Positions 18,986-37,977 of a stretch of 48,730 bases of DNA are shown here, one piece after another. The notes beneath the pieces are model-generated. The model ran no database searches. It was not told where the DNA came from and was given only the letters and a program-made list of their open reading frames with translations. Source of the DNA: Candidatus Saccharibacteria bacterium RIFCSPHIGHO2_12_FULL_44_22 (GTDB lineage Bacteria; Patescibacteriota; Saccharimonadia; Saccharimonadales; Saccharimonadaceae); the NCBI GenBank assembly GCA_001790515.1, contig MGCS01000012.1, forward strand, positions 77,543 to 126,272. Direction: 5' to 3'. The position numbers and the translations under genes are program-made. How positions within the stretch are numbered: the first letter of the stretch is position 1; the number at the start of each line of letters is the position of its first letter.

Positions 18986-19060
18986 GCGGGTGTAGTACAG
19001 TGGCTAGTATGTAAGCCTTCCAAGCTCGAGACGGGAGTTCGATTCTCCCCACCCGCACCA
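18986..19060 (+). tRNA. tRNA-Gly(TCC), insertion site of the recombinase element
   Basis: A 75-base cloverleaf: acceptor GCGGGTG/CACCCGC, anticodon loop CTTCCAA (anticodon TCC), T-arm GGGAGTTCGATTCTCCC, encoded CCA. Upstream TACAAT (18961-18966) is the likely -10. The antisense strand of the 3' two-thirds is the last coding part of the adjacent serine recombinase, whose stop lies in the tRNA (19004-19006). Confidence 0.95.
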
Positions 19061-20548
19061 ATTTTGAGTTTTAGACATATTGATAACATCTTCGAACGGT
19101 TCCTTAAGGGTAAAATGCAGTTTTTCGCCTTCAAGAGTCATGTTCGAAAGTATGAAACTGAGTAAGTACCGTTTTTGCTCTAGTTTCGAAGTTTCTGCAT
19201 CAAACAATTTAACTGCACGGCTACATACATCAATTAAGTAACTTGCGCCAATAACGAACGCTTTATCGCCATCGCTATGGTCTTGTATCTCGCCTAAGAT
19301 TTCTTTTTGACGTATTTCGATTTTCTTTACCATACGTTCGAACATCTCATGGTGTGAGGCGAATTGTTGGCGATCTCTAAAAAGTCCTTCAAGTTCTTCA
19401 TCGAGTGTGTCGTACTCTTTTTGAAGGCCTGTTTTCATTGACGTGTAGTATTCCTGTTCGCTTGCGTAGTTCTTTTGAACTTCTGCAACAAGTGTCGGCA
19501 ACTCACTTTCAGGTAGGTGAATTGAGCGCAAAAGTTCGCGTACTTGTTCGTACAACTTGTCTTCATTGACCCACTGCGCACCGTGCTTACCGCCGAACTC
19601 TGTACATTTTCCATAAATATATTTACCGTTGCGCTTAGGTCCATCGAAAGTAACTGAATAGCCACAAGTATGACATTTCAACTGCTTAAATAGATATGGC
19701 TTGCTTGCGTATTTTGTTTTGTTCTGACCCCTTGAAAGGTTTGCATCCTGTACTTTATCCCAAAGCCAAGGCTCGATAATCGTGTCATATTTATGATCGT
19801 ACTCTTTGCCCATATAGCGCATACGGCCAACGTAAAAAGGATTCTCAAAAATCTTTGCCCATTGTGCGAGTGTGATCGGATTCCGATGTATTGTGTTGCT
19901 GACTAATCCGCGGGCCTTCATTATTTTCGTAATTTCTTTATATGGCAGTCCTGTTGACCTTAGTTTAAATGCTTTCAAGATGTGGGGCGCTCGCACATCA
20001 TCAACTCGAATACCTTTTAGCATTTTGCCATCTGGTTGTTGTTCTTGAAAGTTGGCATAGCCAATAGGGGCTTTCCCTGTCCATATACCGTCGTTAATCA
20101 TTTGATCAAATCGGCGTTTTACATTGTCCCTAATTGCGCTTGAATAATAGCCTGCTAATGCGATGCCAATGTCGAGTCGAAATAGGTCGGCAGCTGGGGA
20201 GTCACGGTTAATATATAAATTGTCTGATGGGAAGTGCATTTCGATTTTGCCCGTCTTCCACATTTGAGTTAACGCTGCCTTTTCTTCTGATGAGCTATCG
20301 CGTGTATAACGGTCGATTTTATCGAAGACGACAATCGCTGTATCTTTCTGTTTTTTAAGCGGTTCGATAACAAGTGCACGAAAGTCTCTGCGATTTTCCT
20401 TAAATGCAGTTTCATCAAACTCGATATATTTGAAATCTATTTCGTCCTTCCATCGAAGGCGCTCTGCGTAATCGTAGAGTTTTTTCTTTTGTGCAGGCAA
20501 CGCTTTTCGTTGCTCTTTATCTGATACTCGTGCTACTAAATAGTTCAT
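19004..20548 (-). CDS. Large serine recombinase (site-specific integrase)
   Basis: A 514-aa protein. The N-terminal resolvase domain has the nucleophile in NYLVARVSDKEQR (Ser9) and the arginine-rich DKIDRYTRDSSSEEK segment. A recombinase domain follows (GYANFQEQQPDGKML ... RGLVSNTIHRNPIT), then a zinc ribbon (KCHTCGYSV ... GKC) and a coiled coil (about 360-430). This is the plan of phage and ICE large serine integrases. The last 18 codons are the antisense strand of tRNA-Gly, giving the tell-tale WCGWGESNSRLELGRL tail; in the excised circle the C-terminus would be different. A ribosome binding site AAGG precedes ATG 20548, with TATAAT further upstream. Confidence 0.92.
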   Translation of the reverse strand: MNYLVARVSDKEQRKALPAQKKKLYDYAERLRWKDEIDFKYIEFDETAFKENRRDFRALVIEPLKKQKDTAIVVFDKIDRYTRDSSSEEKAALTQMWKTGKIEMHFPSDNLYINRDSPAADLFRLDIGIALAGYYSSAIRDNVKRRFDQMINDGIWTGKAPIGYANFQEQQPDGKMLKGIRVDDVRAPHILKAFKLRSTGLPYKEITKIMKARGLVSNTIHRNPITLAQWAKIFENPFYVGRMRYMGKEYDHKYDTIIEPWLWDKVQDANLSRGQNKTKYASKPYLFKQLKCHTCGYSVTFDGPKRNGKYIYGKCTEFGGKHGAQWVNEDKLYEQVRELLRSIHLPESELPTLVAEVQKNYASEQEYYTSMKTGLQKEYDTLDEELEGLFRDRQQFASHHEMFERMVKKIEIRQKEILGEIQDHSDGDKAFVIGASYLIDVCSRAVKLFDAETSKLEQKRYLLSFILSNMTLEGEKLHFTLKEPFEDVINMSKTQNWCGWGESNSRLELGRLTY

Positions 20549-20862: not shown

Positions 20863-21846
20863 TTATTCGTTTTCATCGTTCGTGCCCTCTAAGTGATAGA
20901 GCTTCGATTTGCCCGTCCCTTTGTTTGGTTTAGGTATCGCGCCCTCGTTAACCCAACGCTTCAGTAGTTCACGTAGTTCATGCTCATTTGTATCTATCTT
21001 ACTTTCTGTTAATTGCTCAAGTAGTTCACGTTGCATTAGCTGCCCATGTTCTTTTAGTATTTCAACCACCGCACTAAGCAGGACGGCTGATTTATCTGGC
21101 TGATTGCGAAAAGTTCCTAAGTACTCAAACTTAAAAATTGGATCTGTGGTATTAAACTTCATCTGGAAAGGATCAAGCTCGACATCGTAACGCTGCTTCT
21201 CTTGAGTAAATGTTAAGTAAAATCGGTCTTTACTATCACGTTTCACTCCGATATGACTGTCAACCGCAGCTAGTATGTCTGATGAACCTCTCATCTCGCT
21301 CGCCCCGCCAGTGCTATGCTGTGTAGCCTTGCGATTGTGCTGAGTAACTAGTACGGCAATTTCAGCCTTGGTGAATCTGCGCAGTTTGGCGAATACTTTC
21401 GACATTTCTCTGGCGCTGTTTTCGTCGGCATTATGCACTCGAATAAGTGAGTCGATGATTACCAAAGTAATCTCATTGTCCTTACAGAACTGAATTGTCT
21501 TATCAACCTGTTCATCTTCGAGCTTGAAGTCGGTTAAGGCGGATATGTGAATCGGTAGACCCGTATCCTTTTCTATTCCAAGCTGCCTGAATCGCTGTTG
21601 TAATAGCCTTTCACCGTCCTCTTCATTGATAATTAACACGTTCGCTTGAGTGGTATTGAAGTGCTCAAATAGTGGTTTTTGGCTTGCGACCGCAATCGCA
21701 ATATCCAGTAGGGTGTACGTTTTGTATGATCTACTAGCCCCTGACAAAATAGTAATTGACTCTGTTGGGATTAGGCGATCTACAAGGTAAGTTGCTGGTG
21801 GGTATTTGTGTGCCATAAGCACGTCTATTGTTTTTGAATTGTTCAT
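20863..21846 (-). CDS. RepA-like RecA-fold ATPase (AAA_25 type)
   Basis: A 327-aa protein from ATG 21846, which has AGGAG 7 bases upstream; the frame open to 21921 is not supported. The core is a RecA/DnaB-type ATPase: P-loop SGASRSYKT, in which the usual Gly before Lys is Tyr as in many AAA_25 proteins, then VLIINEEDGERLLQQRF, Walker B LVIIDSL, and VLVTQHNRKA with GSSDILAAVDSHIGV. The C-terminal 90 residues look like a winged helix (LLEQLTESKIDTNEHELRELLKRWVNEG). Related proteins act as replicative helicases or helicase-loading ATPases of plasmids and phages, so the element could replicate after excision (inference). Confidence 0.82.
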   Translation of the reverse strand: MNNSKTIDVLMAHKYPPATYLVDRLIPTESITILSGASRSYKTYTLLDIAIAVASQKPLFEHFNTTQANVLIINEEDGERLLQQRFRQLGIEKDTGLPIHISALTDFKLEDEQVDKTIQFCKDNEITLVIIDSLIRVHNADENSAREMSKVFAKLRRFTKAEIAVLVTQHNRKATQHSTGGASEMRGSSDILAAVDSHIGVKRDSKDRFYLTFTQEKQRYDVELDPFQMKFNTTDPIFKFEYLGTFRNQPDKSAVLLSAVVEILKEHGQLMQRELLEQLTESKIDTNEHELRELLKRWVNEGAIPKPNKGTGKSKLYHLEGTNDENE

Positions 21847-21925
21847 TCGTTTGCTCCTGAAAGTTAGTGAGCCAACCGCGCGACGACTTAGTGGTTGGCG
21901 TGTCGTCGCACTATTATTCAAACAA

Positions 21926-23224: not shown

Positions 23225-23608
23225 ATGAGAAAAAGCATCGTGCAAAATAATTTTCCTGGTATTAACACTGCATCACTAATAGTACAAACACAAGATTTAA
23301 TTGATTTGGCGGTTGAGTTTTGGCGGCTTGAAAAACGATTCAAAAAGATTGAAGACAAGTTGTCGGAAGACGAAAACAAGGCTTTTCGTAACTCAGTTGA
23401 AAAGCTGGGACGCTTTGTGAAGAAAAACCATCTTGAGGTGATTGACTACACAGGGCAAACATATAACGATGGTATGAACCTAGATATACTTGCCAGTGAA
23501 AAAGATTCTCAGCTGGAGCAGGACATTATTTTTGAAACCCATGAGCCAGCAGTGTCTCATAATGGCGTATTGATTAGAAAGGCAAAGGTGATCATCCATG
23601 AAAAATAG
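23225..23608 (+). CDS. GrpE-like nucleotide exchange factor
   Basis: A 127-aa protein. The first half is helical and charged (LAVEFWRLEKRFKKIEDKLSED). The second half has GRFVKKNHLEVIDYTGQTYNDGMNLDIL and ends ETHEPAVSHNGVLIRKAKVIIHEK, which corresponds to the GrpE wing domain ending (HEAV ... GRVLRPAKVIV). It is shorter than normal GrpE because the long N-terminal coiled coil is reduced. It overlaps the Hsp70 gene by 11 bases, so the two are co-translated, which supports a nucleotide-exchange role for that Hsp70. TAGAAT (23199-23204) is the likely -10; no ribosome binding site is visible. Confidence 0.65.
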   Translation: MRKSIVQNNFPGINTASLIVQTQDLIDLAVEFWRLEKRFKKIEDKLSEDENKAFRNSVEKLGRFVKKNHLEVIDYTGQTYNDGMNLDILASEKDSQLEQDIIFETHEPAVSHNGVLIRKAKVIIHEK

Positions 23609-26132
23609 CTCAGCACCCAAAACAGATAACAGTGTGATTAGCATTGGTATTGATCTAGGTACAACTAACTCAGCAATCGCAATCAGCCAGAAGGGCGTGA
23701 TTGAGCATATCAAGAGCGGTCCAGGACAGCCCGAGTATACACCTTCTGTTTTTGGTGTAGATAAATCAGGAAATAAAATTGTTGGGCAGAAGGCTTATGA
23801 TAAGTTATTCAAGAGTGCATCAGATGAAGAGTTTGCCAATAATAAGGCAGAAGTAAAGCGTTTGATGGGCACGTCCGAGACGATACCCTTTGAGCGTCTT
23901 GGAGAATCAATGACGCCTGAACAGGTATCATCTGAGATACTCAAGAGTCTCGTTGAAGATGTTACTCGTAAATACTCTGACTTTTCAACACTTGCTGCGG
24001 TGATTACTATTCCTGCGTATTTTTCTTCTCTACAGTCTGAAGCTACGAAACGTGCTGGTGAGCTAGCGGGATTCAAGCAAGTAGTACTTTTGCAAGAGCC
24101 AATCGCAGCAGCTATGGCGTATGGGTTTGAGAATACTAAAGACCAGAACTGGATTGTATACGATCTCGGTGGTGGTACTTTCGATGTAGCATTGATCTCT
24201 TCGAAGGACGGAATTCTTTCGGTATTGGGTCATAATGGCGATAACTTTTTAGGCGGTAAGGACTTTGACCTTAAAATCGTAGACGAAATAATCAAACCTG
24301 CCATTCTTGAAAAATATATTTTGAAAGATTTTGATAGGAGTAATAATAAATACAAAGCTGTATTTGCCCGACTTAAGGCAATTGCCGAAGAGAAGAAAAT
24401 TGAGCTCTCGCAATACGACAAGGTCACTCTTGAAGTTGAAGATGTATTCAAGGATGACGACGGTAAGGACGTCTATGTATCAATTGATTTCACTCGTGCG
24501 CAATTTGAGGAATTAATAAGCCCACTTGTTAGTAAAACCGTTGATCTAACAAAGAAAACACTTGAAGACTCGGGTGTTCAGTTGCCTGCTGTTTCAAGAA
24601 TTGTTCTTGTAGGCGGACCAACTCAGATACCTTACGTGCGCGAATCCCTAAAGAACGAGTTCAAACTTGATATTGATTCTTCTGTTGATCCCCTTACTGT
24701 AGTTGCGAGAGGTGCTTGTGTTTACGGCCTCAGCCAACGCGTGTCACTGGATTTACTTGAACAGAGTAGCGGAGTTAGTAAAGAGACTTTGAAACTTGAA
24801 TTGCATTATGATTCAATGACTGCCGATGATGAGACAACAGTAGCAGGTAAGATCGCGGGGCTAGCTGATGTTGAGGATGATTACTTCGTACAGATTCAGT
24901 CGGATAGTGGTACATACAGCAGTTCAAAGATTCGTCTAAAGAATGGTAAGTTCTCTGATACAGTAGCTGTTGAAAAAGGTAAGACAGGTACATTCTGGAT
25001 TTATTTATTCGACGAGGATAGTAACGTTGTCCCAGTATTTCCCGAGTCGTTTTCAATAACACACGGGCTCACGGTATCAGGCGCGCCTATTCCGCATGGA
25101 ATCGGTGTAGTGTATGCAAAAAGAGGTTTTGATAACGACTTCCAGTTTAAAGAGGCGTGCGATCTTTACTTTGATAAAGACAGTAAGCTCCCTCTGAAGG
25201 ATACAAGGTCATATAAAACAGCATGGAAATTGCACAAAAACCAAGACAATAGCCTCCCTATCAAGATTTACGAAGGCGAATCATCAAACCCAGAGCATAA
25301 TGATGTAATTAGCACGCTTCACATTAAAGGCGATGAGTTGCCTTATGATTTGCCTGAAGGAACGGACGTTGATATTACAATCATGGTTGATGAATCGAGG
25401 GCGGTAAAGATTGAGGCGTACATACCGAGCATTGATAAGACTCTGGACGTTCGTGCTGACAGGTATGCTCAGCCAGTCGATACGAAGAAGTTGGCGGTTG
25501 ATCTTGAGACTCAGAGGAGTCGACTCAAGAAAGTGGCGAGCGGTATACCTGAAGATGAACAGTCTAAACTTGAAAATCAGATCGACTCTCTCGAAACAAA
25601 CATCAAGAACTCAGAGAATGACACGGATGATCGTCAAAAAGCCGAACGTGACATGCGTGAATTGAAGTCAGATTTGGAAAAGATTGAGCAAGACAGGTCT
25701 ATACCTCAACTTAGTGATGACTTCCATGAGAAACTTCAATCTCTAAGGGGTGTACTGGATGCCGTAGACGATCAAATTGAACGTACGAGGATTGCGGATG
25801 TATTGAGTTCTATTGAAGCAGAGGGTGAAAGGGCAATTGCCGATAAGGATAAAGAGCTTCTCGTGAGACTCAACGAGCAGCTTCAGGGCTTGATTATGGC
25901 GATACTAATGGAAGACCCTGCTCTATGGGTTGGCTGGCTTAACAACATAAAGGCACGAAAAGATGAGCTTACGAACAAGACAGTGGCCGAGCATCTTATC
26001 GCAAAGGCTGATGAAGCGGTGGCGAACGGTGATGTTCAGTCATTAAAGCAACATGTGCGTGAGTTGATTGAACTACTTCCGGACGATACTGAAGACGAAA
26101 TCAGACAGGGAATGTCGGGAATTACTCGATAA
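23598..26132 (+). CDS. Atypical Hsp70 with inserted beta-domain and long coiled-coil tail
   Basis: An 844-aa protein. Residues 14-385 are an intact Hsp70 nucleotide-binding domain: IGIDLGTTNSAIA (phosphate 1), VITIPAYFSS, YDLGGGTFDVALIS (phosphate 2), VLVGGPTQIPYVRESL (adenosine). Instead of the usual linker and substrate domain, about 90 residues of a beta-rich domain follow (about 395-490, FVQIQSDSGTYSSSKIRLKNG, TGTFWIYLFDED). Then comes a recognisable substrate-binding beta-domain (PIPHGIGVVYAKRG ... LPIKIYEGE ... VKIEAYIP), and from 625 a long helical, partly coiled-coil region. DnaK is about 630 aa, so this is a derived chaperone. It overlaps the GrpE-like gene and the J-like gene (TAATG), in a tight four-gene operon. 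Confidence 0.9.
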   Translation: MKNSSAPKTDNSVISIGIDLGTTNSAIAISQKGVIEHIKSGPGQPEYTPSVFGVDKSGNKIVGQKAYDKLFKSASDEEFANNKAEVKRLMGTSETIPFERLGESMTPEQVSSEILKSLVEDVTRKYSDFSTLAAVITIPAYFSSLQSEATKRAGELAGFKQVVLLQEPIAAAMAYGFENTKDQNWIVYDLGGGTFDVALISSKDGILSVLGHNGDNFLGGKDFDLKIVDEIIKPAILEKYILKDFDRSNNKYKAVFARLKAIAEEKKIELSQYDKVTLEVEDVFKDDDGKDVYVSIDFTRAQFEELISPLVSKTVDLTKKTLEDSGVQLPAVSRIVLVGGPTQIPYVRESLKNEFKLDIDSSVDPLTVVARGACVYGLSQRVSLDLLEQSSGVSKETLKLELHYDSMTADDETTVAGKIAGLADVEDDYFVQIQSDSGTYSSSKIRLKNGKFSDTVAVEKGKTGTFWIYLFDEDSNVVPVFPESFSITHGLTVSGAPIPHGIGVVYAKRGFDNDFQFKEACDLYFDKDSKLPLKDTRSYKTAWKLHKNQDNSLPIKIYEGESSNPEHNDVISTLHIKGDELPYDLPEGTDVDITIMVDESRAVKIEAYIPSIDKTLDVRADRYAQPVDTKKLAVDLETQRSRLKKVASGIPEDEQSKLENQIDSLETNIKNSENDTDDRQKAERDMRELKSDLEKIEQDRSIPQLSDDFHEKLQSLRGVLDAVDDQIERTRIADVLSSIEAEGERAIADKDKELLVRLNEQLQGLIMAILMEDPALWVGWLNNIKARKDELTNKTVAEHLIAKADEAVANGDVQSLKQHVRELIELLPDDTEDEIRQGMSGITR

Positions 26133-27955
26133 TGTCAAAGTTATTTTCTGAAAATGCGTACAGTATACTCGGGCTTGATACGAGTGCATCTCAGAAGAAT
26201 ATAACTAAACGATCAAAGGAGATTCTTCATCAGCTGTTTATGGATGATAGTCCAGAATACGAGACCGACATATCTTCAATTAACCAGTCGCTACGCAGTG
26301 AGGCATCGGTAAATGATGCGGTACAGCGTTTAAGCTCGCCCGTGAAGCGTATTCAGGAGTATTTCTTCTGGTTCGAAATTGAAGGTGGCGATGATGAGAA
26401 GAATCTGGCACTGCTACGAGATGATCAGTATGACGAAGCCCTCGATAACTGGAAAGATCGTTCAGAGAAGAGCTACACGGCAAAGAGGAACCTTGCAATC
26501 TCTAGTTCGTTGCTAGCAAGTAAGACAGGCTATAAGAAGCACCTCAAGCTCTCGTTAGACGCCTGGAAAGAAGTTGTTGAATCGGATAAGTTTTGGTCTC
26601 ATTTTGAGAAAGTTTATGCGTTGAATGATGAGATAGGTACGAGCAGCACGGCGCTGAATGAGTTTCGTAAAAAAGTAACTGATTACTTGTCGGACTTCTA
26701 TACTGACGTAAGTCGTGCGAAGCAGGATAATAGCATTTTCGCCGCATTTAGTGCAGCCTTCGGCGTAAAGGGTCAAAAGGTACAAGATGAAGTTCTTGCA
26801 CCTATCTTTGATCAGATAAATAGCGCGGCTGAACAACTTAGAGGTCTCGATGCAAGTGCAGATGGCAAACTCTCACCTCAAGAGTCTATGACTATCAAGC
26901 GCCTTACGAAGAAGATTCAGGATTTATTTCAGGAGATTAAAGACCTTGGGCTTTACGAAGACTCTCAAAGCAAGGCGATGCGTGACAAGGCTGCGGACGC
27001 TCTCAATATAGTAGGTGTCGATTTGTTTAACAATTTAGATGAAGACGCAAAAGCTCTTGTTCTGATAAAGCTCGCGAAGTCTCTTGCTATAGGCCCGGCG
27101 GTTATTAGTCAGATTAATAAAAACGCTGACTACATTCGCGAAGTTACATCTCACAAGAAGGTAATTACGCCTATCAATGACCTTATTGAGAAAAACGAAT
27201 ATGATGATGCGCTCGTATTGCTTGATCAGGCTCAAAAGGCTAATAAGGGTGACGATACGTTACAAAAGTATTTCACGATGCGTATACGCTGGTGTGTAAC
27301 CGCTGTTGCTGATCGGGATTTTGAAGAGGCTCAAAGACTATTCAAGGCCGAACGCTACGAAGAGGCATTTGAGAAGTTCAAAGAGGTGTATGAGTTTATA
27401 TATTCCTACATTGTAGACTTCGATATTGATGTGAAGGCCTTGGATAATGTACTAAACACGTTGTGGCGCAAGCTAGAAAACCTCGATTCTAATAGTGTGA
27501 ACGACGCCGAGAGTTACAGGACTCAGGTTATTGAAAATAGTAATTATGATGAAGAGGAAAGTTTCGAGCGCCCTGTAATATCTTTGTTAATGAACTCCGC
27601 TATATTCCAAAGAATGGCTGAGCAAATCCCAGAAATTAAGAAGCAGAACAAGGCGAACGGAGTCAAGAAAGTAATCTGGAATCTCGTTATATGGGGTGCG
27701 ATCATAGGTTTTATCGCTATTGTAGGCTCTAATAATGGAGGTTCAGATTCGAGCAGTTCATCATCTAACTCGGCTTGGCAAACTTGCTCAGACGAGTACG
27801 ATGCACTGAGCAGCCAGCTCACTTCTGTCGAGTCTCAAATGGATAGTTACGACGCGTCTGGTGATACCGAAAGCTACAATAGCCTTGTACCACAGCAGAA
27901 CGAACTTGTTGCTGATGTAAACGCTAAATCTACTGAATGTAATGGATTGAGGTAA
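26132..27955 (+). CDS. Membrane-anchored J-like protein lacking HPD
   Basis: A 607-aa protein. Residues 7-80 resemble a J-domain (ENAYSILGLDTSASQKNITKRSKEILHQLF ... VNDAVQRLSSPVKRIQEYF), but the His-Pro-Asp loop needed to stimulate Hsp70 is replaced by FMDDSP. A long helical region follows with TPR-like repeats (RDFEEAQRLFKAERYEEAFEKFKEVYEF). A single transmembrane helix lies at about 514-534 (VIWNLVIWGAIIGFIAIVGS), then a Ser-rich linker and an extracytoplasmic helical tail with two cysteines. It starts one base before the end of the Hsp70 gene. It probably tethers the chaperone system to the membrane and recruits Hsp70 in an HPD-independent way (inference). Confidence 0.75.
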   Translation: MSKLFSENAYSILGLDTSASQKNITKRSKEILHQLFMDDSPEYETDISSINQSLRSEASVNDAVQRLSSPVKRIQEYFFWFEIEGGDDEKNLALLRDDQYDEALDNWKDRSEKSYTAKRNLAISSSLLASKTGYKKHLKLSLDAWKEVVESDKFWSHFEKVYALNDEIGTSSTALNEFRKKVTDYLSDFYTDVSRAKQDNSIFAAFSAAFGVKGQKVQDEVLAPIFDQINSAAEQLRGLDASADGKLSPQESMTIKRLTKKIQDLFQEIKDLGLYEDSQSKAMRDKAADALNIVGVDLFNNLDEDAKALVLIKLAKSLAIGPAVISQINKNADYIREVTSHKKVITPINDLIEKNEYDDALVLLDQAQKANKGDDTLQKYFTMRIRWCVTAVADRDFEEAQRLFKAERYEEAFEKFKEVYEFIYSYIVDFDIDVKALDNVLNTLWRKLENLDSNSVNDAESYRTQVIENSNYDEEESFERPVISLLMNSAIFQRMAEQIPEIKKQNKANGVKKVIWNLVIWGAIIGFIAIVGSNNGGSDSSSSSSNSAWQTCSDEYDALSSQLTSVESQMDSYDASGDTESYNSLVPQQNELVADVNAKSTECNGLR

Positions 27956-27958
27956 GGA

Positions 27959-29029
27959 ATGAGTACACTAACGAAGCCGCTTCTATATAACGGATATAAA
28001 ATTAACGACAAGTTAAGCGTAACTGGACGTATCGAAAAAGTTTTCTTTACGGAGGTTTATAACCTATCTGATGGCAGGTTTCTGTATCTATTCACCAATA
28101 TCAAGTCAAATGAAGTTAGGGGCGATAATGACCAACTTATTAGAATTGAGGCTAGTGGTAGTGAGTACCTCGGGTTGATTACAGATTCATACTCTCAAGA
28201 GCAGGTTACGAAAATTATAGACAGTCTAACTGAACTCAAGGGCTTTGATGCAGTTGCTGGTATGCGTGAACTAAAGCAGGTGCTTGTAGAAGATGTGATT
28301 AACCCACTACAAAATCCAGAAAAGTATGAGAAGTTTAAGCTCTCAATCCCGAATGGCGTAATCTTATTTGGGCCTCCAGGATGCGGTAAAACCTATATCA
28401 TTAGAAAGTTGGCCGAGGAGATTAATTACAACTTTGTAGAGATTAAGCACTCTGATATTGCCTCGTCATATATTCATGGAACCGTTGGTAAAGTCGGGCG
28501 TTTGTTCGATGCCGCGAGGTCTAAAGCTCCCTCGATTGTTTTCATTGATGAAATCGAAGGCATTGTACCTAAGCGCGACAGTCTAGGTGAAAGCTCGCAA
28601 CATAAACAGGAAGAGATAAATGAGTTTTTGATGCAATTAAATGATGCTGCGAAGGATAAAATCCTCGTAGTAGCTGCAACTAACCGACCGCAGCTTATTG
28701 ACCCTGCATTATTAAGGGCGGGTCGAATGGACAAGCGTATCTTCGTGGGTCCACCAGATGAAACGGCGCGCCAAGAGCTGTTCAAATTGTTTCTCTCTGA
28801 TAGGCCAACAAGTGAAATAGACTACGCGAAGCTCGCAAGTCTTACTGCCAACTATGTAAGCGCAGACATTGAATATATGGCAACAGAAGCTGCTAGAGAA
28901 GCCGTTGCACGTGACCTTGATACTGTTGATCAATCTACCATCGAGAACGTCATTAGCGTTACTCAGCCTTCTATTAGTGAAGAAGAGCTGGCGATGTATG
29001 AAGATTTCAGGAAGCTACAGAGGTGGTAG
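27959..29029 (+). CDS. AAA+ ATPase, Cdc48/FtsH-like single ring
   Basis: A 356-aa protein with a 90-residue N-domain and one classical AAA module: FDAVAGMRELKQVLVEDVINPL, Walker A GPPGCGKT (138-145), Walker B IVFIDEIEG (Asp197, Glu198), the second region of homology with AATNRPQLIDPALLRAGRMDKRI including arginine fingers, and a C-terminal helical lid. There is no protease domain and no FtsH-type transmembrane segment. It lies 3 bases after the J-like gene and closes the operon. With GrpE-like, Hsp70 and J-like proteins it forms a disaggregase-like set in which a Cdc48-type ring replaces ClpB (inference). Confidence 0.92.
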   Translation: MSTLTKPLLYNGYKINDKLSVTGRIEKVFFTEVYNLSDGRFLYLFTNIKSNEVRGDNDQLIRIEASGSEYLGLITDSYSQEQVTKIIDSLTELKGFDAVAGMRELKQVLVEDVINPLQNPEKYEKFKLSIPNGVILFGPPGCGKTYIIRKLAEEINYNFVEIKHSDIASSYIHGTVGKVGRLFDAARSKAPSIVFIDEIEGIVPKRDSLGESSQHKQEEINEFLMQLNDAAKDKILVVAATNRPQLIDPALLRAGRMDKRIFVGPPDETARQELFKLFLSDRPTSEIDYAKLASLTANYVSADIEYMATEAAREAVARDLDTVDQSTIENVISVTQPSISEEELAMYEDFRKLQRW

Positions 29030-29352: not shown

Positions 29353-30135
29353 TTACTCCGCCATCATTATCCTCATAATATCTCCATATACCCGGCGGGC
29401 TGTAGCATAGTTCTGTTCAGAGACCCTGGCATAATGCTCCATCATAATCCCATCATTTACTTCCAAAACCATACTTTGACCATCTTGCAGAATGATAATA
29501 TCCACGGCAGCCAAATGTAACCCCAAGGCCTGTCGCGCAGACAATGCTAATTTTACGATCGCGCTATCCGGAACAATATTGCGTGGTACCGCTCCCTTGC
29601 CCAAATTAAACATCAGTAGTTCACTACTGGGTATTGGTAACTTTTCGTACGACAATAACACCTTGTCGTCTAATACAATCAGTCGTATTTCTTGTTGAAT
29701 GTTGTAATACGGAGAAACAGCCCACGCCTCAATACCAGATTGCTCTATCCATTCTTCGGCTGACTGTCGGGATTTTAGCCGTCTGACTCCATGGCCGCTT
29801 GTGCCAGCCAGCGGCTTTACGACAATATCTTGCCAATTGTCATTAAACGAAGCACCGCCGACACCCACCTTTGTTCGCAGTAACGTATGTTCAACCGCAG
29901 CGACATCATTTGCACGAAGTATTTGATATGCAGCAACTTTATCGGAAGCGATCATGGATGCAACACTATTATTAATATCAAACTTATAGCCGATGATTCG
30001 CCGAACAGTATCTGTGGATTCCAATTCAATTACCCAATCATCAGAATAAGTACGTAAAGTGCATCCTATATCACTCGCAATCTGTCGTACGATCTTTGGC
30101 AGCCACCTATCGATAATATATTCACCTGTTTGCAT
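29353..30135 (-). CDS. ATP-grasp ligase, RimK-like
   Basis: A 260-aa protein. ATP-grasp features: VVKPLAGTSGHGVRRLKS (the Lys/Gly-rich ATP loop), WAVSPYYNIQQEIRLIVLDDKVLLSYEKL, GAVPRNIVPDSAIVKLALSARQALGLHLAAVDIIILQDGQSMVLEVNDG, where the final Glu-x-Asn binds Mg-ATP. The N-terminal 90 residues are the pre-ATP-grasp domain (YKFDINNSVASMIASDKVAAYQILRANDV). RimK-type enzymes ligate amino acids to proteins or peptides; the substrate here is unknown. TATAAT (30147-30142) ends 6 bases before ATG 30135. It is divergent from tRNA-Arg(TCT). Confidence 0.85.
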   Translation of the reverse strand: MQTGEYIIDRWLPKIVRQIASDIGCTLRTYSDDWVIELESTDTVRRIIGYKFDINNSVASMIASDKVAAYQILRANDVAAVEHTLLRTKVGVGGASFNDNWQDIVVKPLAGTSGHGVRRLKSRQSAEEWIEQSGIEAWAVSPYYNIQQEIRLIVLDDKVLLSYEKLPIPSSELLMFNLGKGAVPRNIVPDSAIVKLALSARQALGLHLAAVDIIILQDGQSMVLEVNDGIMMEHYARVSEQNYATARRVYGDIMRIMMAE

Positions 30136-30280: not shown

Positions 30281-30356
30281 GCCCCGGTAGCTCAGTGGAT
30301 AGAGCAAGAGACTTCTAAGCTTTTGGCCGTTGGTTCGATTCCAACCCGGGGTACCA
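30281..30356 (+). tRNA. tRNA-Arg(TCT)
   Basis: A 76-base cloverleaf: acceptor GCCCCGG/CCGGGGT, D-arm GCTCAGTGGATAGAGC, anticodon loop CTTCTAA (anticodon TCT), T-arm GTTGGTTCGATTCCAAC, encoded CCA. The anticodon stem has a mismatch (A31/G39) and a wobble pair. Its last 15 bases (CAACCCGGGGTACCA) are repeated exactly at 32953-32967. Confidence 0.92.
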
Positions 30357-30434
30357 TTTCTCGTTAACAGATGTAATTTAGTTCGAACCTTATAGACCGT
30401 TTTATCGCTCTATCTGTTACCCAGTTCTAACTTA
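30351..30434 (+). repeat. Direct repeat R1 (tRNA-Arg 3' end plus flank)
   Basis: Begins with the GTACCA of tRNA-Arg(TCT) and continues TAACAGAT, TTTAGTTC, TAGACCGTT, ATC.GTTA, AGTTCTA. It aligns with R2 at 31645-31726 over its whole length at roughly three quarters identity by eye. TAACAGAT and ATCTGTTA inside it are an inverted pair. Confidence 0.7.
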
Positions 30435-30444
30435 AACATTGTTA

Positions 30445-30855
30445 TTAGCTTAAATACTCAAGTCTCTTAAGAAGAGTCTTTGTCGGTGGGTTAAGATCAT
30501 AATTCTCCAGCTCGCCCGGTACTGCCCATTCTAAAGTCTCATTTTCATTAACAGGTTTCGGTTCACCAGTGTCAATCTCACAAATTGCATCAATATATAC
30601 AAATCGCTTCTCTTCACCATCATGATCGACTTTTAACTCTTCATCCCACCAAAGCTTCTCACTAATGCGAACTTTAAAATTCCATCGTGTCTCTAATTCT
30701 TTATTTAGAAGATCTTGCACCGAACCTTCACCGTCGATTCTTCCCCCGAATAAAGCCCATAATTCCTTATACGGACTTTTTGCTGAATCCATTTTACGAA
30801 GAAGTATTTTATCTTCGGAGTTTACAACTGCAACTGCCATTAATACTGTTTTCAT
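30445..30855 (-). CDS. Nudix-fold protein with degenerate Nudix box
   Basis: A 136-aa protein with the Nudix fold: MKTVLMAVAVVNSEDKILLRKM, WALFGGRIDGEGSVQDLLNKELETRW, and a C-terminal helix. In the Nudix box the consensus REUXEE is KELETR, so the two metal-binding glutamates are replaced by Thr and Arg; hydrolase activity is doubtful. It may be a binding or regulatory protein instead. The start ATG 30855 has -10-like TAAGAT 8 bases upstream. The gene is the first cassette next to tRNA-Arg(TCT), transcribed toward the tRNA. Confidence 0.85.
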   Translation of the reverse strand: MKTVLMAVAVVNSEDKILLRKMDSAKSPYKELWALFGGRIDGEGSVQDLLNKELETRWNFKVRISEKLWWDEELKVDHDGEEKRFVYIDAICEIDTGEPKPVNENETLEWAVPGELENYDLNPPTKTLLKRLEYLS

Positions 30856-30883
30856 ATATTCTTATCTTAACACCATGGCTTTA

Positions 30884-30913
30884 ATTTCATACAACACGCT
30901 GCACCAAATCTGA
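30884..30913 (+). repeat. tRNA-end-like boundary site S1
   Basis: Contains CACGCTGCACCAAATCTGA and matches S2 (31628-31657) at 24 of 30 positions without gaps. S1 and S2 flank the CPBP-like gene as direct repeats. Confidence 0.6.
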
Positions 30914-31008
30914 AAAATATTTACATACATTCCTGAAACTTGTTCAAAGTAGATGATTTGACCTTTAGGCTTAGTTTCATAGCTCGCTATCATGTTTATG
31001 TTAAGATA

Positions 31009-31617
31009 ATGGCAACGATGAAACCACGAATCAATACAGTTCTTCTTACTTTAATACTTTCATCACTATGGTTGCTCGTGTGGTCGTTGACTCATGGCTT
31101 TTTCATGAACGACAACTTAATGAGCCTACTGCCTGGTGATTTTAATCAGAAATATATTACTGCAAGTCTCTATATCCTTATAGTCATAATTGGTTCATTC
31201 TTTATTCTTCCAAAAATTCGTAAGAAGAATCTAACTAAATCAAAGCTTATTTATCTGTATCTGATTCCTCTGTCTCTAATTGCCGCTCTGCCTATCCACT
31301 ATAGTCTCACGCTCAATCCAGCTGTATACATACTCATGATTCTCATATCTTGCTTCTGGCAAGATTACTTAACCTTTGGCATTTACCAGACAGAGCTAAG
31401 TAAGAGGCTGAGACCCTTGGCGACCATTCTTACGGTTGCGACAGTCTTTTTCTTAGGCCATTTCATCTTTTACTTAGATATCTTAAATCAACAATCAATA
31501 TTTAGCTGGTTGATGATTGCAATTGCAGGACTAGCACTTGCTACGATTCGATATAAAACAAATAATGTCTACACCTCTAATGTAATACACCTTAGTTTTT
31601 TGCTATTAGTTGTATAG
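31009..31617 (+). CDS. CPBP-like intramembrane protein with altered first motif
   Basis: A 202-aa protein with about six transmembrane helices. The segment CFWQDYLTFGIYQTELSKRL sits where CPBP (CAAX/bacteriocin-processing) proteases have EExxxR, but the two glutamates are Gln-Asp. The second motif FxxxH is present (FFLGHFIFY) and the third is weak (NVIHLSF). It is therefore a CPBP relative of doubtful protease activity. ATG 31009 or 31018 is the likely start (TAAGAT at 31002-31007); the frame open to TTG 30940 is unsupported. Bounded by S1 and S2 as a single-gene cassette. CPBP members often act in immunity or peptide processing. Confidence 0.65.
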   Translation: MATMKPRINTVLLTLILSSLWLLVWSLTHGFFMNDNLMSLLPGDFNQKYITASLYILIVIIGSFFILPKIRKKNLTKSKLIYLYLIPLSLIAALPIHYSLTLNPAVYILMILISCFWQDYLTFGIYQTELSKRLRPLATILTVATVFFLGHFIFYLDILNQQSIFSWLMIAIAGLALATIRYKTNNVYTSNVIHLSFLLLVV

Positions 31618-31627
31618 GTTAGTTCTT

Positions 31628-31657
31628 ATTTCAGATATAACGTTGTACCAAATCTGA
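31628..31657 (+). repeat. tRNA-end-like boundary site S2
   Basis: Contains AACGTTGTACCAAATCTGA. Its right half starts repeat R2, so S2 corresponds to the tRNA-Arg 3' end in R1. Confidence 0.6.
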
Positions 31658-31726
31658 GCTAACAGATACAGTTTAGTTCCAACTTTTAGACCGTTCTAAT
31701 GCCCCATCCGTTATTAAGTTCTACTT
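31645..31726 (+). repeat. Direct repeat R2
   Basis: Starts GTACCAAATCT and follows R1 (30351-30434) block by block: TAACAGAT, TTTAGTTC, TAGACCGTT, ATCCGTTA, AGTTCTA. R1 and R2 enclose the Nudix and CPBP-like genes. Confidence 0.7.
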
Positions 31727-31781
31727 TTAATTTGAGTAATATACCTATAGAAACCCCCGTGAGTTTGTTATAGTGAATAAA

Positions 31782-32744
31782 ATGCTTAAAAAAAATAATG
31801 CACCACCAAAACCACTCTCTGTTAAACGGTTGTTCATTTGGATTTTACTATTTCTAGTCGTCACTATATTGGCATTAATTATTATTGAAAGAAAAAAAGA
31901 AATAGACGAACTTCGCACTCTTCCTGTTCCTGGTAGATTAGTTACAATAAACGGTAATCAAAAAGTACACATAAACTGTACGGGCGAGGGGAAGCAAACT
32001 GTCATTCTCGAATCTGGCATGGGTGGAACTTCTCTAGATTGGGTAAGGGTGCAGCCAGAATTAGCAAAGAAAACAAAAGTATGCTCTTATGACCGGCCAG
32101 GATATGGCTGGAGCGACGAAGCTAAGTCGGAAAGGAATGCAAGTGTCTCAGCAGACGACTTATACGCAATTCTTCAAGCAAGTGACGCACGACCGCCTTA
32201 TGTTATTGTAGGTGGTTCGTATGGAGGTCTCATATCACGGCTATTTACTCAGAGACATATAAAGCAGGTTGATGCACTCATTCAGATAGATCCGTCGCAC
32301 GAGTCAGACCTAAAGCTTCCTAACGATTCTCCTGAACAACTTAGTAAGACTGATTTTTCTACCAGTACCTATCTGGCGTTAGATGTCATTAGTTCATACC
32401 TTGGGATAATTCGGGCGAATAGCATGAATAGTTACTCGAAGGATGACTTTCGAACGAAGGAACAGCTAGCGATGCTATCAAGCCCTAAAAATTTTAGAAC
32501 CATGCTACGTGAATATAACTCCCTGACTAAAAGCACTACTTTAGTTCGTGATAATGCGAGTTCGTTCAATTCTCTAAAAGTAGACTATCTTTTAACGTCG
32601 AATAGGTACATAAGAAAAGCCGATTTCTGTCATATTTCTATCAAATGCACTGTCAAAAGCTCGGGTAATGAAGATCACTTAATACCACAGAACAACCCCA
32701 GCTTAATATACTCAGTTGTTACAGAAGCCTTACAAAGCAACTAA
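31782..32744 (+). CDS. Alpha/beta hydrolase with N-terminal membrane anchor
   Basis: A 320-aa protein. One N-terminal transmembrane helix (LFIWILLFLVVTILALIII) leads into an alpha/beta hydrolase: LESGMGGTSLDWVRVQPELA (oxyanion region), YDRPGYGWSD, nucleophile elbow VGGSYGGLISRLF, QIDPS, and a C-terminal NEDHLIPQNNP with the likely catalytic His. ATG 31782 is chosen because TATAGT (31769-31774) ends 7 bases upstream and covers the alternative GTG 31773. Substrate unknown; such membrane-tethered lipase/esterase-like enzymes face outward. It is the third accessory gene of the tRNA-Arg segment. Confidence 0.85.
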   Translation: MLKKNNAPPKPLSVKRLFIWILLFLVVTILALIIIERKKEIDELRTLPVPGRLVTINGNQKVHINCTGEGKQTVILESGMGGTSLDWVRVQPELAKKTKVCSYDRPGYGWSDEAKSERNASVSADDLYAILQASDARPPYVIVGGSYGGLISRLFTQRHIKQVDALIQIDPSHESDLKLPNDSPEQLSKTDFSTSTYLALDVISSYLGIIRANSMNSYSKDDFRTKEQLAMLSSPKNFRTMLREYNSLTKSTTLVRDNASSFNSLKVDYLLTSNRYIRKADFCHISIKCTVKSSGNEDHLIPQNNPSLIYSVVTEALQSN

Positions 32745-32762
32745 ATTGGTTATAACTTCACT

Positions 32763-32814
32763 CACAGCGCTGTACCATGAAAAATAGTCGTCCATCTGGA
32801 TGACTATTTTTCAT
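32763..32814 (+). terminator. tRNA-end-like site S3 followed by a 13-bp terminator
   Basis: CACAGCGCTGTACCA (32763-32777) is followed at once by ATGAAAAATAGTC (32777-32789), pairing exactly with GACTATTTTTCAT (32802-32814). The terminator serves the hydrolase gene and again begins at a CCA. Confidence 0.7.
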
Positions 32815-32829
32815 ATTCCTCGGATGGTT

Positions 32830-32967
32830 CGAGCTAACGGCGTTTTGCAAAGCAAAACGTAGCCGTTGGTTCGTGTAGTGACGAGAGATAAAAATGTATT
32901 TACATATTTTTATGAACGAACGGATATAGAGAGGCCTTGGCCGACCGCCGGACAACCCGGGGTACCA
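32830..32967. repeat. Structured element B ending in a decayed tRNA-Arg 3' end
   Basis: Hairpin 1: AACGG-CGTTTTGC (32836-32848) with GCAAAACG...GCCGTT (32852-32867), whose right arm GCCGTTGGTTCG matches tRNA-Arg(TCT). Then comes TGTAGTGACGAGAGA, hairpin 2 TAAAAATGTA/TACATATTTTTA (32889-32912), then TGAACGAACGGA and TTGGCCG...CAACCCGGGGTACCA. The order matches element A. It fills the 32745-33070 gap together with S3 and the next promoter. Confidence 0.5.
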
Positions 32968-33058
32968 AATTTAGAAATTATTTATATTTATCTGCTTTCT
33001 GTGGTTACAATACGGCTCCATCTTTAATAGACCCGCCTGCAAATGAATGTTTTACTGC

Positions 33059-33064
33059 TAAAAT
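33059..33064 (+). promoter_or_regulatory. TAAAAT -10, 6 bases before the hydrolase gene at 33071
   Basis: TAAAAT ends exactly 6 bases before ATG 33071, with no ribosome binding site: leaderless arrangement. Confidence 0.5.
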
Positions 33065-33070
33065 AGCAAT

Positions 33071-33652
33071 ATGACGACCGTCCTATTTGTTCCTGGATTT
33101 CGAGAAGATAAAAAATCACGCAATTACACAGCGATGATCGATGCTATCGAGAAAGCTGGCTATAATGTCGTATTTGCTGATATAAAATGGAAACGCACAA
33201 CCATTAAAGATTGGACTGCTCAGCTTGATCTTATATACAAAGAATACAATCCAAACGATACTATATTAGCTGGCTTCTCTTTCGGCGCAATGACAGTATT
33301 TACCGTTGCAGCTAAACAGAATCCGAGTGAGCTATGGTTATTTTCTCTATCACCTTATTTCAAAGAAGACATTGAAAGTGACGATATGCAAGATGTTTGG
33401 TTGAAAAATATAGGAAAAAACCGGACGACTGCTTTTAGCGAATTACATTTTAGCAAAATGGCAAAAAGCATTAGATGCAAAACTCTTATCTTTGTCGGCC
33501 AAATGGAGCTTGATATGTGGCCTGACATGAAAAACCGTACTAATGAAGCAAAGCGGATAATCGAGAATTCTCACTTATCCATCATCGCAGACACGGGTCA
33601 CGATGTAGCTGATTCAAAATATATTGATGCCCTTGTTAATGTGCTTAGTTGA
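33071..33652 (+). CDS. Small alpha/beta hydrolase
   Basis: A 193-aa minimal alpha/beta hydrolase: VLFVPGFREDKKSRNYTAM (oxyanion loop), nucleophile elbow AGFSFGAMTVF, a short cap, LIFVGQMELDMWPDM with the likely acid, and ADTGHDVAD with the catalytic His. No signal peptide, so cytoplasmic. The size and GxSxG are those of RBBP9/dienelactone-type esterases; the substrate is unknown. It ends with TGA, one of few in the window, which argues against UGA recoding. It lies just right of the tRNA-Arg segment with a leaderless-type promoter. Confidence 0.82.
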   Translation: MTTVLFVPGFREDKKSRNYTAMIDAIEKAGYNVVFADIKWKRTTIKDWTAQLDLIYKEYNPNDTILAGFSFGAMTVFTVAAKQNPSELWLFSLSPYFKEDIESDDMQDVWLKNIGKNRTTAFSELHFSKMAKSIRCKTLIFVGQMELDMWPDMKNRTNEAKRIIENSHLSIIADTGHDVADSKYIDALVNVLS

Positions 33653-33725
33653 TACGAATCCTAGCACCAAGCCTGCTGTCATATTAATATTATGCTAGAA
33701 AAAGTCGAATATAATCTTCGTTTGT

Positions 33726-33731
33726 TACAAT
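33726..33731 (+). promoter_or_regulatory. TACAAT -10, 6 bases before the VOC gene
   Basis: TACAAT ends 6 bases before ATG 33738. Confidence 0.5.
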
Positions 33732-33737
33732 AGGTAT

Positions 33738-34082
33738 ATGGTAAAACATAATCAAATAGATCTCATTGAATTCCCCGTAAAATCTGCAGAGCAACTTAAC
33801 TCGACGAAAAACTTTTTTACAAATGTTTTTGACTGGAAGTATACGGAGTGGGGTGAAACATATAGTGATACAACCGACAGTGGCACAAGTAACGGCATTA
33901 ATAGTGATCAGGGTCAATCTATGCCGCTTACTGTTATTTATTCCGAGGATCTGGAATCAACAAAAGAAAAGGTCGTTCAAAACGGCGGCACGATCATACT
34001 CGACACATATACATTTCCAGGTGGACGACGATTTCATTTCACGGAACCAAATGGGAACGAACTAGCCGTTTGGTCTGAATAA
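33738..34082 (+). CDS. VOC-superfamily (glyoxalase/bleomycin resistance-like) protein
   Basis: A 114-aa protein with the paired beta-alpha-beta-beta-beta units of the vicinal oxygen chelate fold: IDLIEFPVKSAEQLNSTKNFFTNVFDWKYTEWG, then LTVIYSEDLESTKEKVVQNGGTIILDTYTFPGGRRFHFTEPNGNELAVWSE. The end FTEPNGNELAVW is the classical VOC signature with a metal-ligand Glu; the first ligand is at the usual N-terminal position only weakly (IDLIEF). A cytoplasmic dimeric enzyme or binding protein; substrate not predictable. Monocistronic. Confidence 0.82.
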   Translation: MVKHNQIDLIEFPVKSAEQLNSTKNFFTNVFDWKYTEWGETYSDTTDSGTSNGINSDQGQSMPLTVIYSEDLESTKEKVVQNGGTIILDTYTFPGGRRFHFTEPNGNELAVWSE

Positions 34083-34116
34083 CCGTACACTGCTTTGGGT
34101 CAATTTATATCTCTGC

Positions 34117-34122
34117 TATACT
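34117..34122 (+). promoter_or_regulatory. TATACT -10, 7 bases before the redoxin gene
   Basis: TATACT ends 7 bases before ATG 34130. Confidence 0.55.
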
Positions 34123-34129
34123 AGTCGAA

Positions 34130-34711
34130 ATGTCATCACATCTTACAGTCGGCCAGAAAGCACCGCAATTTACCCGCCTAGATACAAGTGGGCGGTCAAT
34201 AGCATTGTCTGATTATTCAAAATCATTTGTACTAGTTGCCTTTTTGCGATATTCGGGCTGCCCATGGTGCAACCTGGCCGTTCATCGATTAGCTATGGAG
34301 TATCCACTACTTAAAGAAAGTAAGTGCGAAGTAATCACGTTTATTCAATCATCAAAAGAATCAATCCAAGAAAACATATTTGATCGTCATAACGTCACGC
34401 CACTTTTCCCAATCATTGCAGACGCGAGTATGGAAATGTATGCAGTGTACGACGTCACAGGCTCGGCGATTCGCGGCCTTCGTCATCATATCAAAAATAT
34501 ACCGTCATGGGTCAAAGCCGTCAGCAAGGAAGGATTTGCCCAAACATCGATTGACGGACATTTCTTTCTAGCGCCAGCGACTTTTTTGTTGTCACCAGGC
34601 GAACAACAGATTATTCGAATAGATTATGACGCAGATTTATATAAACATGAATCATTTACAAATATTTACGATGCTATTTCTAGCTATAATCTGTATGGAC
34701 TTAATACTTAA
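34130..34711 (+). CDS. Peroxiredoxin-like redoxin (AhpC/TSA_2 type)
   Basis: A 193-aa thioredoxin-fold protein: LTVGQKAPQFTRLDTSGRSIALSDY, then VLVAFLRYSGCPWCNLAVHRL with a CxxC active site, FIQSSKESIQENIFDRH, and a C-terminal ATFLLSPGEQQIIRIDYDADL. The combination of CPWC with the AhpC-TSA_2 layout is that of SelL/PrxL2-like redoxins rather than typical peroxiredoxins. It probably reduces peroxides or disulfides in the cytoplasm. The stop TAA (34709-34711) directly abuts the stop of the convergent tspO gene (34712). Confidence 0.82.
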   Translation: MSSHLTVGQKAPQFTRLDTSGRSIALSDYSKSFVLVAFLRYSGCPWCNLAVHRLAMEYPLLKESKCEVITFIQSSKESIQENIFDRHNVTPLFPIIADASMEMYAVYDVTGSAIRGLRHHIKNIPSWVKAVSKEGFAQTSIDGHFFLAPATFLLSPGEQQIIRIDYDADLYKHESFTNIYDAISSYNLYGLNT

Positions 34712-37561: not shown

Positions 37562-37935
37562 TAAAATGCATACCCCATGCCAGCGAGAATAATGCCAACC
37601 AGCGGCAACACCGGAACAATCGCCCAAATGATTAAAATGACCATACCAAACAGCGCAGTTAACGCGATAGTTATCATGCCAGCTATCAACAGTACAGTAC
37701 GGATCATTGCACCGATTACACGTGAGATAAGCTTATCCGCAAACGCTCGAAGCTGCACGCCAAGCGGTCCGTCGATTTTGCCGGCAGATATTTGACGAAA
37801 TGGAGAAAAGAGGGTTTTTGCCAGTAGATCAATCGAGAAATAATCGATCATACCATCTATTTGCGCACTGACAATCTTCGCACGCCTGCGCCACCCGTCG
37901 CTATACCACCACTGAAGAAGACTGACAAAAAGCAT
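37561..37935 (-). CDS. Conserved membrane protein upstream of the ClpC-like gene
   Basis: A 124-aa protein. An N-terminal region (MLFVSLLQWWYSDGWRRRAKIVSAQIDGMIDYFSIDLLAKTLFSPFRQI) is followed by two long hydrophobic helices (RTVLLIAGMITIALTALFGMVILIIWAIVPVLPLVGIILAG). ATG 37935 is preferred to ATG 37941 because TACAAT (37947-37942) ends 6 bases before it. It is coupled to the ClpC-like gene by TAATG, which suggests a membrane partner or adaptor of that ATPase. Family not recognised. Divergent from murT, with back-to-back -10 boxes. Confidence 0.72.
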   Translation of the reverse strand: MLFVSLLQWWYSDGWRRRAKIVSAQIDGMIDYFSIDLLAKTLFSPFRQISAGKIDGPLGVQLRAFADKLISRVIGAMIRTVLLIAGMITIALTALFGMVILIIWAIVPVLPLVGIILAGMGYAF

Positions 37936-37941
37936 AATCAT

Positions 37942-37969
37942 ATTGTACCACTATCAGGTGCGCTATAAT
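37942..37969. promoter_or_regulatory. Back-to-back -10 boxes between clpC-like operon and murT
   Basis: TACAAT on the minus strand (37947-37942) and TATAAT on the plus strand (37964-37969) lie only 16 bases apart, so polymerases compete for this 42-base gap. They end 6 and 8 bases before the respective starts. Confidence 0.6.
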
Positions 37970-37977
37970 AGAGACAC

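Follow-up and report, generated by a model that had tools for sequence, protein, structure and literature searches.

The window analysed here (48,730 nucleotides; positions 77,543 to 126,272 of contig MGCS01000012.1, Candidatus Saccharibacteria bacterium RIFCSPHIGHO2_12_FULL_44_22) contains, at 23225-29029, four plus-strand open reading frames (ORFs) encoding a GrpE-like protein, an atypical Hsp70, a J-like protein with one transmembrane (TM) helix and a Cdc48-type AAA+ ATPase. The question raised by this locus is what such a chaperone set does for the genome or the element that carries it. With a probability of about 0.5, the operon would encode a self-contained Hsp70/AAA+ remodelling machine on the inner side of the cytoplasmic membrane, carried on mobile elements and most likely serving as an anti-phage (conflict) system. 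Sequence evidence gives good support to a membrane helix, a dedicated Hsp70 and linkage to mobile elements, and we infer the physical complex, its orientation, its clients and the defence function.

The operon and its proteins

Neighbouring ORFs overlap by 11 bases (genes 1 and 2) and by 1 base (genes 2 and 3) or are separated by 3 bases (genes 3 and 4). The coordinates, overlaps and gap are the same as in the sequence-only reading made earlier of this DNA. A chance gene cluster is disfavoured, as the same gene order was confirmed in about 10 further loci. When the host genome (1.23 Mb in 16 contigs, 99 % complete) was examined, only one other Hsp70 was observed, a full DnaK on contig C4. GrpE and DnaJ are also encoded on C4, and one additional J-domain gene lies on C13. 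Since C4 encodes a full DnaK/GrpE/DnaJ set, the operon is an additional Hsp70 set beside the housekeeping one; the outcome feared in the sequence-only reading, that these genes would be the sole set of the genome, did not occur, and the claimed separateness from the housekeeping DnaK holds.

The Hsp70 (844 aa, 23598..26132, plus strand; ORF, family search, alignment and model) consists of a nucleotide-binding domain (NBD; residues 16-377, 23643..24728, family search and alignment), an extra beta domain at the place of the usual DVLLLDV linker (approximately residues 395-510, 24780..25127; alignment and model, low to moderate confidence), a substrate-binding beta domain (SBDbeta; approximately residues 515-620, 25140..25457, alignment and model) and a long helical lid or tail (residues 629-841, 25482..26120, model). 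It ends with GITR, and its patescibacterial relatives end with GIT plus one residue. The protein belongs to the Hsp70 superfamily (PF00012, E-value 1.2e-83; fold Z of about 33 to Hsp70 NBDs), and its model, with a mean pLDDT of only 70, superposes on full DnaK/mortalin chains over residues 6-624 (NBD and SBDbeta), with the inserted beta domain separating the two parts at moderate model confidence. The phosphate loops DLGTTNS and GGGTFD are kept, with minor variants, among all 19 intact family Hsp70s. It is not a DnaK equivalog by TIGR02350 (261.8 bits against a cut-off of 822.55, with the best stretch covering the NBD only).

DnaK-type Hsp70s are triggered by the HPD motif of the J domain, and J action depends critically on the D35-R167 contact (PMC13012618, PMC8215388). 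At the position of DnaK R167, a non-basic residue (V, A, E or S; V in the window) was found in 19 of 19 intact family Hsp70s, and the position of N170 is Q in all 19 aligned sequences, including that of the window. R and N, respectively, are retained in the DnaK of the host. A change from K to Y at DnaK position K70 was also considered as a sign of a dead or altered ATPase, and this argument was dropped because the host's DnaK itself (C4, G000; L014:5710-7623) has Q, not K, at that position.

The third gene encodes a fusion of 607 aa (26132..27955, plus strand; ORF, alignment and model) composed of a J-like domain (residues 8-81, 26153..26374, NAYSILGL...EYFFWF, assigned by helix pattern), a helical solenoid, a single hydrophobic TM helix (residues 514-532, 27671..27727) and an outer helical hairpin containing Cys552 and Cys603 (27770..27949, alignment), which is a separate protein, here called X, in most relatives. 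No J-like member examined has HPD between its helices II and III. No significant match to DnaJ (PF00226) was obtained for the window protein (E-value 0.089), and only one of 11 members matched (E-value 0.011). A Foldseek/VIA search with its model returned generic helical repeats only, with no J domain listed, and no convincing sequence relative of the J-like or GrpE-like proteins was found in PDB. The protein is called J-like on helix pattern and gene position, with no family match. The predicted TM helix bears out the membrane tethering that the sequence-only reading had claimed. Because the loss of HPD in the J-like protein is matched by the loss of R167 and N170 in the Hsp70, we infer a dedicated, altered interface between the two.

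In most relatives X is encoded by its own gene beside the J-like gene and starts with a short, conserved stretch in the cytoplasm, followed by a linker, a hydrophobic helix and the outer hairpin. J-like protein and X tail form one fusion in the window, L028 and L029 (this order of Patescibacteria) and also in Alphaproteobacteria (L059, L060), where Sinorhizobium and Aminobacter have a similar fused tail. Among the X parts examined, those of Patescibacteria all have two outer-tail cysteines, as do five of six from Proteobacteria. Peptidoglycan-binding domains (PG_binding_1) were found in some X proteins, including those of Vibrio and Shewanella, the latter having EGF-like repeats as well. The N-terminal motif of X is LxFDxDFLD-like in Patescibacteria and GFAGLSS..SxxD-like in Proteobacteria (L013:3971-4453, L017:5625-6236, L023:12312-12920, L071:22281-22967) and could be a docking peptide for Hsp70 or the AAA+ protein. 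The outer tail of the window protein is 35-44 % similar to stretches within other proteins (open frames of 313-341 aa; L005, L006 and L007) of related genomes, in which it had no other match.

The first gene encodes a GrpE-like nucleotide exchange factor of 127 aa (23225..23608, plus strand; ORF, family search and profile-profile comparison). By itself, the window protein matches GrpE weakly (E-value 0.01, below the cut-off); PF01025 was matched by nine of 10 family members (best E-value 9.9e-7). The beta-wing of GrpE appears to be kept, and the stalk is short. An N-terminal TM helix is present in most patescibacterial members and absent from the window copy. The patescibacterial proteins and the product of the small gene before Hsp70 in Proteobacteria match each other in profile-profile comparison (E-value 1.4e-15), and the small gene preceding each Hsp70 in other phyla is, by such comparison, GrpE-like.

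The last gene encodes a Cdc48/VCP-D2-like AAA+ ATPase of 356 aa (27959..29029, plus strand; ORF and family search) with Walker A GPPGCGKT, Walker B FIDE and a Y-I-H pore loop. It matches the AAA family (E-value 2.5e-36) plus the lid and is a classical AAA protein of the Cdc48/FtsH/PAN group, closest to Cdc48/VCP, with no protease domain detected by family search. Its single AAA module (two are required of Cdc48/VCP) and its score against the CDC48 subfamily (185 against 802 bits) identify it by sequence as Cdc48-like rather than Cdc48. The N-terminal domain (residues 1-95, 27959..28243, alignment of relatives) is family-specific. In the Bacteroidota relative Haliscomenobacter (L052:11362-13176) a kinase domain takes its place, and residues 1-95 of the window protein may be what is left of a kinase N-lobe.

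Distribution and carrying elements

The same gene order, for which the sequence-only reading had proposed a search, was found in about 10 other loci, mostly of Patescibacteria, so the neighbourhood is conserved. Complete patescibacterial loci have the order GrpE-like, Hsp70, J-like, (X), AAA+, usually a few bases apart, and in several of them an XRE-type regulator lies directly upstream. Three of 380 genomes in a phylum-wide sample contain the system (Hsp70 C-terminal half as query; a fourth match was marginal), as do four of 393 in a class sample (J profile search), corresponding to a frequency of approximately 1 % of the genomes sampled. Collection scans yielded six loci in genomes and one in the viral collection, L022 among these being the same locus as G264; named sources are, among others, contigs of Falkowbacteria, Harrisonbacteria and Berkelbacteria. 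When the J-like protein was the sole query, no close relatives were found in genome, viral or plasmid collections, and relatives were recovered only with profiles and the Hsp70 C-terminal half. No Hsp70 relative was found among INPHARED phages. The contig L020 from a gammaproteobacterial metagenome-assembled genome was set aside when occurrence in that phylum was judged, as a binning error is possible.

When plasmids were searched by tblastn, long relatives with about 24 % identity were observed in Bacteroidota and Proteobacteria. These distant relatives are carried on plasmids of Bacteroidota and of Alpha-, Beta- and Gammaproteobacteria, and one was found in E. coli HeN100, where the operon has five genes and lies at about 4115.5-4122.4 kb of NZ_CP044443.1. 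The AAA and Hsp70 profiles match between lineages at E-values below 1e-50. Proteobacterial copies reside on plasmids (several of them conjugative), on Tn7-like transposons and on a tRNA-Phe island of E. coli. Insertion sequences interrupt or truncate some copies (L058, L072); in E. coli NH-21 (L072:17566-21237) only the AAA+, X and J-like genes are present, flanked by IS1 copies. The sequence-only reading, which is otherwise supported in part, has neither X nor the occurrence in E. coli and other phyla nor the matched loss of Hsp70 J-contact residues.

In the window, a large serine recombinase gene (19004..20548, minus strand; ORF and family search) precedes the operon by 2.7 kb, and its stop lies inside a tRNA-Gly(tcc) gene (18986..19060, plus strand; tRNA prediction and repeat search), the likely left attachment region. 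An AAA_25 (RepA/DnaB-like) ATPase of the element is encoded at 20863..21921 (minus strand, family search). The sequence-only reading had described the operon as cargo of a tRNA-Gly element; the end of the recombinase gene within the tRNA gene makes this plausible, but a direct-repeat search for attL/attR at the window gave a chance 14-mer only and no attR repeat. The homologue of 29353-30135 neighbours that of 35111-39246 in two relatives (synteny with G008/G096/G016), by which the borders are not fixed; the two homologues are nearly adjacent in G008 and G016. A second variable stretch (30281-34711) lies beside a tRNA-Arg gene.

A large serine recombinase was found 0.8-15 kb from the system in all seven genomes with long enough flanks (Fisher combined p of about 2e-4 against random placement), which sustains the suspected link to integrative elements. 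Seven large serine recombinase matches occur in the 1.23 Mb of the host genome, and this suggests that it carries many integrated elements. Terminase-like genes on the G198 and IMG/VR contigs, and a portal-like gene on the latter, were spotted by eye in translations, not by family search. The phage-like contig IMGVR_UViG_3300037483_001825 (62 kb; L023, L036, L037) carries the chaperone operon together with a defence island (Gabija-like, type IIG, HKD+Snf2).

Function of the operon and rival explanations

Named defence genes were observed near the system in several carriers: a type III restriction-modification system and AbiU in G198 (L012), GajA/GajB (Gabija) and type IIG on the viral contig (L023/L036), Zorya, Gabija and BREX-2 in Polaromonas (pPNAP01), Gabija and type IIG in Sinorhizobium, a partial Gabija in Aminobacter, a DndC-like gene in P. 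hygromyciniae, BREX in Haliscomenobacter, and RADAR with a DptF remnant in E. coli HeN100. The association suspected in the sequence-only reading is thus often seen, but enrichment over a plasmid control was not significant, and we regard the association as suggestive.

Several observations weigh against a defence machine. Named defence genes were present in six of eight system windows and in three of eight diametrically opposite windows of the same plasmids (one-sided Fisher p of about 0.16, by hand), the latter having been counted without a PADLOC scan. No recognised defence gene was found in the element of the window. The family AAA+ gene is not adjacent in several copies (Sinorhizobium, Aminobacter, P. 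hygromyciniae), and the homology between the J-like proteins of the patescibacterial and proteobacterial lineages is moderate (E-value 7e-5, probability 63 %). A defence role is probably correct, and it is read from gene neighbourhood only. Moreover, a precedent for mobile chaperone islands exists in the transmissible locus of stress tolerance (tLST; PMC8290217), which favours a mobile Hsp70/AAA+ set for stress survival.

This stress explanation, which we consider rather unlikely, accounts for the complete set of Hsp70, GrpE and J-like proteins with a threading-type AAA+, and HscC with its tail-anchored DjlB/DjlC is a precedent for a membrane Hsp70 (PMC8215388). However, small heat-shock protein (sHsp), ClpB/ClpG, FtsH and other tLST genes were not seen alongside the operon, whereas defence genes often are, and the distribution is very sparse. 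In addition, as HPD is missing, ordinary client loading is unlikely.

That the operon helps its carrying element or prophage, e.g. by assembling its transfer or phage membrane proteins or inserting them, is less probable still. Lambda and similar phages use host DnaK, recombinases are usually near, and terminase-like and portal-like genes accompany one copy on a phage-like contig. Nevertheless, the carriers are unrelated (serine-recombinase elements, Tn7-like transposons, conjugative plasmids, the E. coli tRNA-Phe island) and no one transfer or phage module goes with the system. A decayed or neutral passenger Hsp70 set, to which the interrupted copies and the lost HPD and DnaK J-contacts would point, is very improbable given that, across phyla, Hsp70 and AAA+ retain their ATP-binding motifs and the genes their full order.

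If the operon is a membrane-bound defence machine, the X part would cross the membrane once and place the Cys-bearing hairpin outside, with a peptidoglycan-binding domain in some relatives. X would serve as the anchor of the machine and may also detect phage entry or damage to the envelope. The HPD-less J-like solenoid would recruit the dedicated Hsp70 via the interface changed by the loss of R167/N170, the GrpE-like protein would recycle nucleotide, and the Cdc48-type AAA+ would thread or extract the Hsp70 client. Proteins acting in phage entry or assembly are candidate clients, as is a damaged membrane complex. In its most specific form, which we put forward tentatively and hold to be possible rather than probable, this would be an undescribed, widely transferred and peptidoglycan-anchored anti-phage system of an Hsp70, an HPD-independent J partner and a Cdc48-like unfoldase, dismantling or trapping phage proteins at entry. 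If true, Hsp70s would form the core of a dedicated mobile machine, beyond being host factors exploited by phages, and one more candidate defence system would be available for Patescibacteria, in which few are characterised. The matched loss of HPD and R167/N170 would offer a natural case of an Hsp70 driven without the canonical J-domain trigger, and the E. coli copies open the system to direct testing in laboratory strains.

Comparison with known systems

When the operon proteins were compared with NCBIfam 20.0 and PADLOC 2.0.0, no named model was reached and no full match obtained, in agreement with the sequence-only reading, which had not recognised a named anti-phage system. No named Hsp70/GrpE/J/AAA defence system was found in the literature searched, which covers few subscription papers. 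In an E. coli genome annotation of 2026 a neighbour is named rdrB and the chaperone operon genes are left generic.

In the predicted conflict loci centred on a GAP1-N2 GTPase (Kaur et al. 2020, PMC7159879), HSP70 and GrpE occur alongside a DnaJ or TPR partner. The present operon differs by its HPD-less J-like protein, Cdc48-like AAA+ and membrane protein X, and neither a GAP1-N2 GTPase nor a McrB-like GTPase domain was found in its genes by family searches. CnuD of CoCoNuT has an Hsp70-like NBD/SBD with degenerate ATP motifs in a defence setting (PMC11090510); here the ATP motifs are intact, and McrB/McrC and coiled-coil nucleases are absent. The gene set is neither a GAP1-N2 locus nor a CoCoNuT.

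IetA (IetA/IteA) of the Iet anti-phage system is the best PADLOC match of the AAA+ protein (E-value 5e-38). It does not qualify as IetA in NCBIfam (122.9 against a cut-off of 510 bits), and the serine protease IetS is not in the operon. Zorya (ZorAB), which is encoded nearby on pPNAP01, is likewise an inner-membrane machine with a peptidoglycan-binding outer part, but its proteins are not homologous, ZorA/B being MotAB-like. The tLST likewise places chaperones on a mobile island; its ClpG, sHsp and FtsH were not observed beside the operon.

HscC with DjlB/DjlC of E. coli is likewise a dedicated Hsp70 with a membrane-anchored J partner. Unlike the operon, HscC is thought to be GrpE-independent and has no AAA+ partner, and DjlB/DjlC are true J-domain proteins. 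To our knowledge, HscC, DjlB and DjlC have no outer peptidoglycan-binding part. The DnaK-DnaJ-GrpE system with ClpB shares with the operon an Hsp70 with intact ATP motifs, a GrpE-like protein, a J-like partner and a threading-type AAA+. In contrast to that system, the operon combines a J-like protein without HPD with an Hsp70 that is missing R167/N170 and carries an additional beta domain. Its AAA+ is Cdc48-like rather than ClpB, and the whole set is membrane-anchored and resides on mobile elements.

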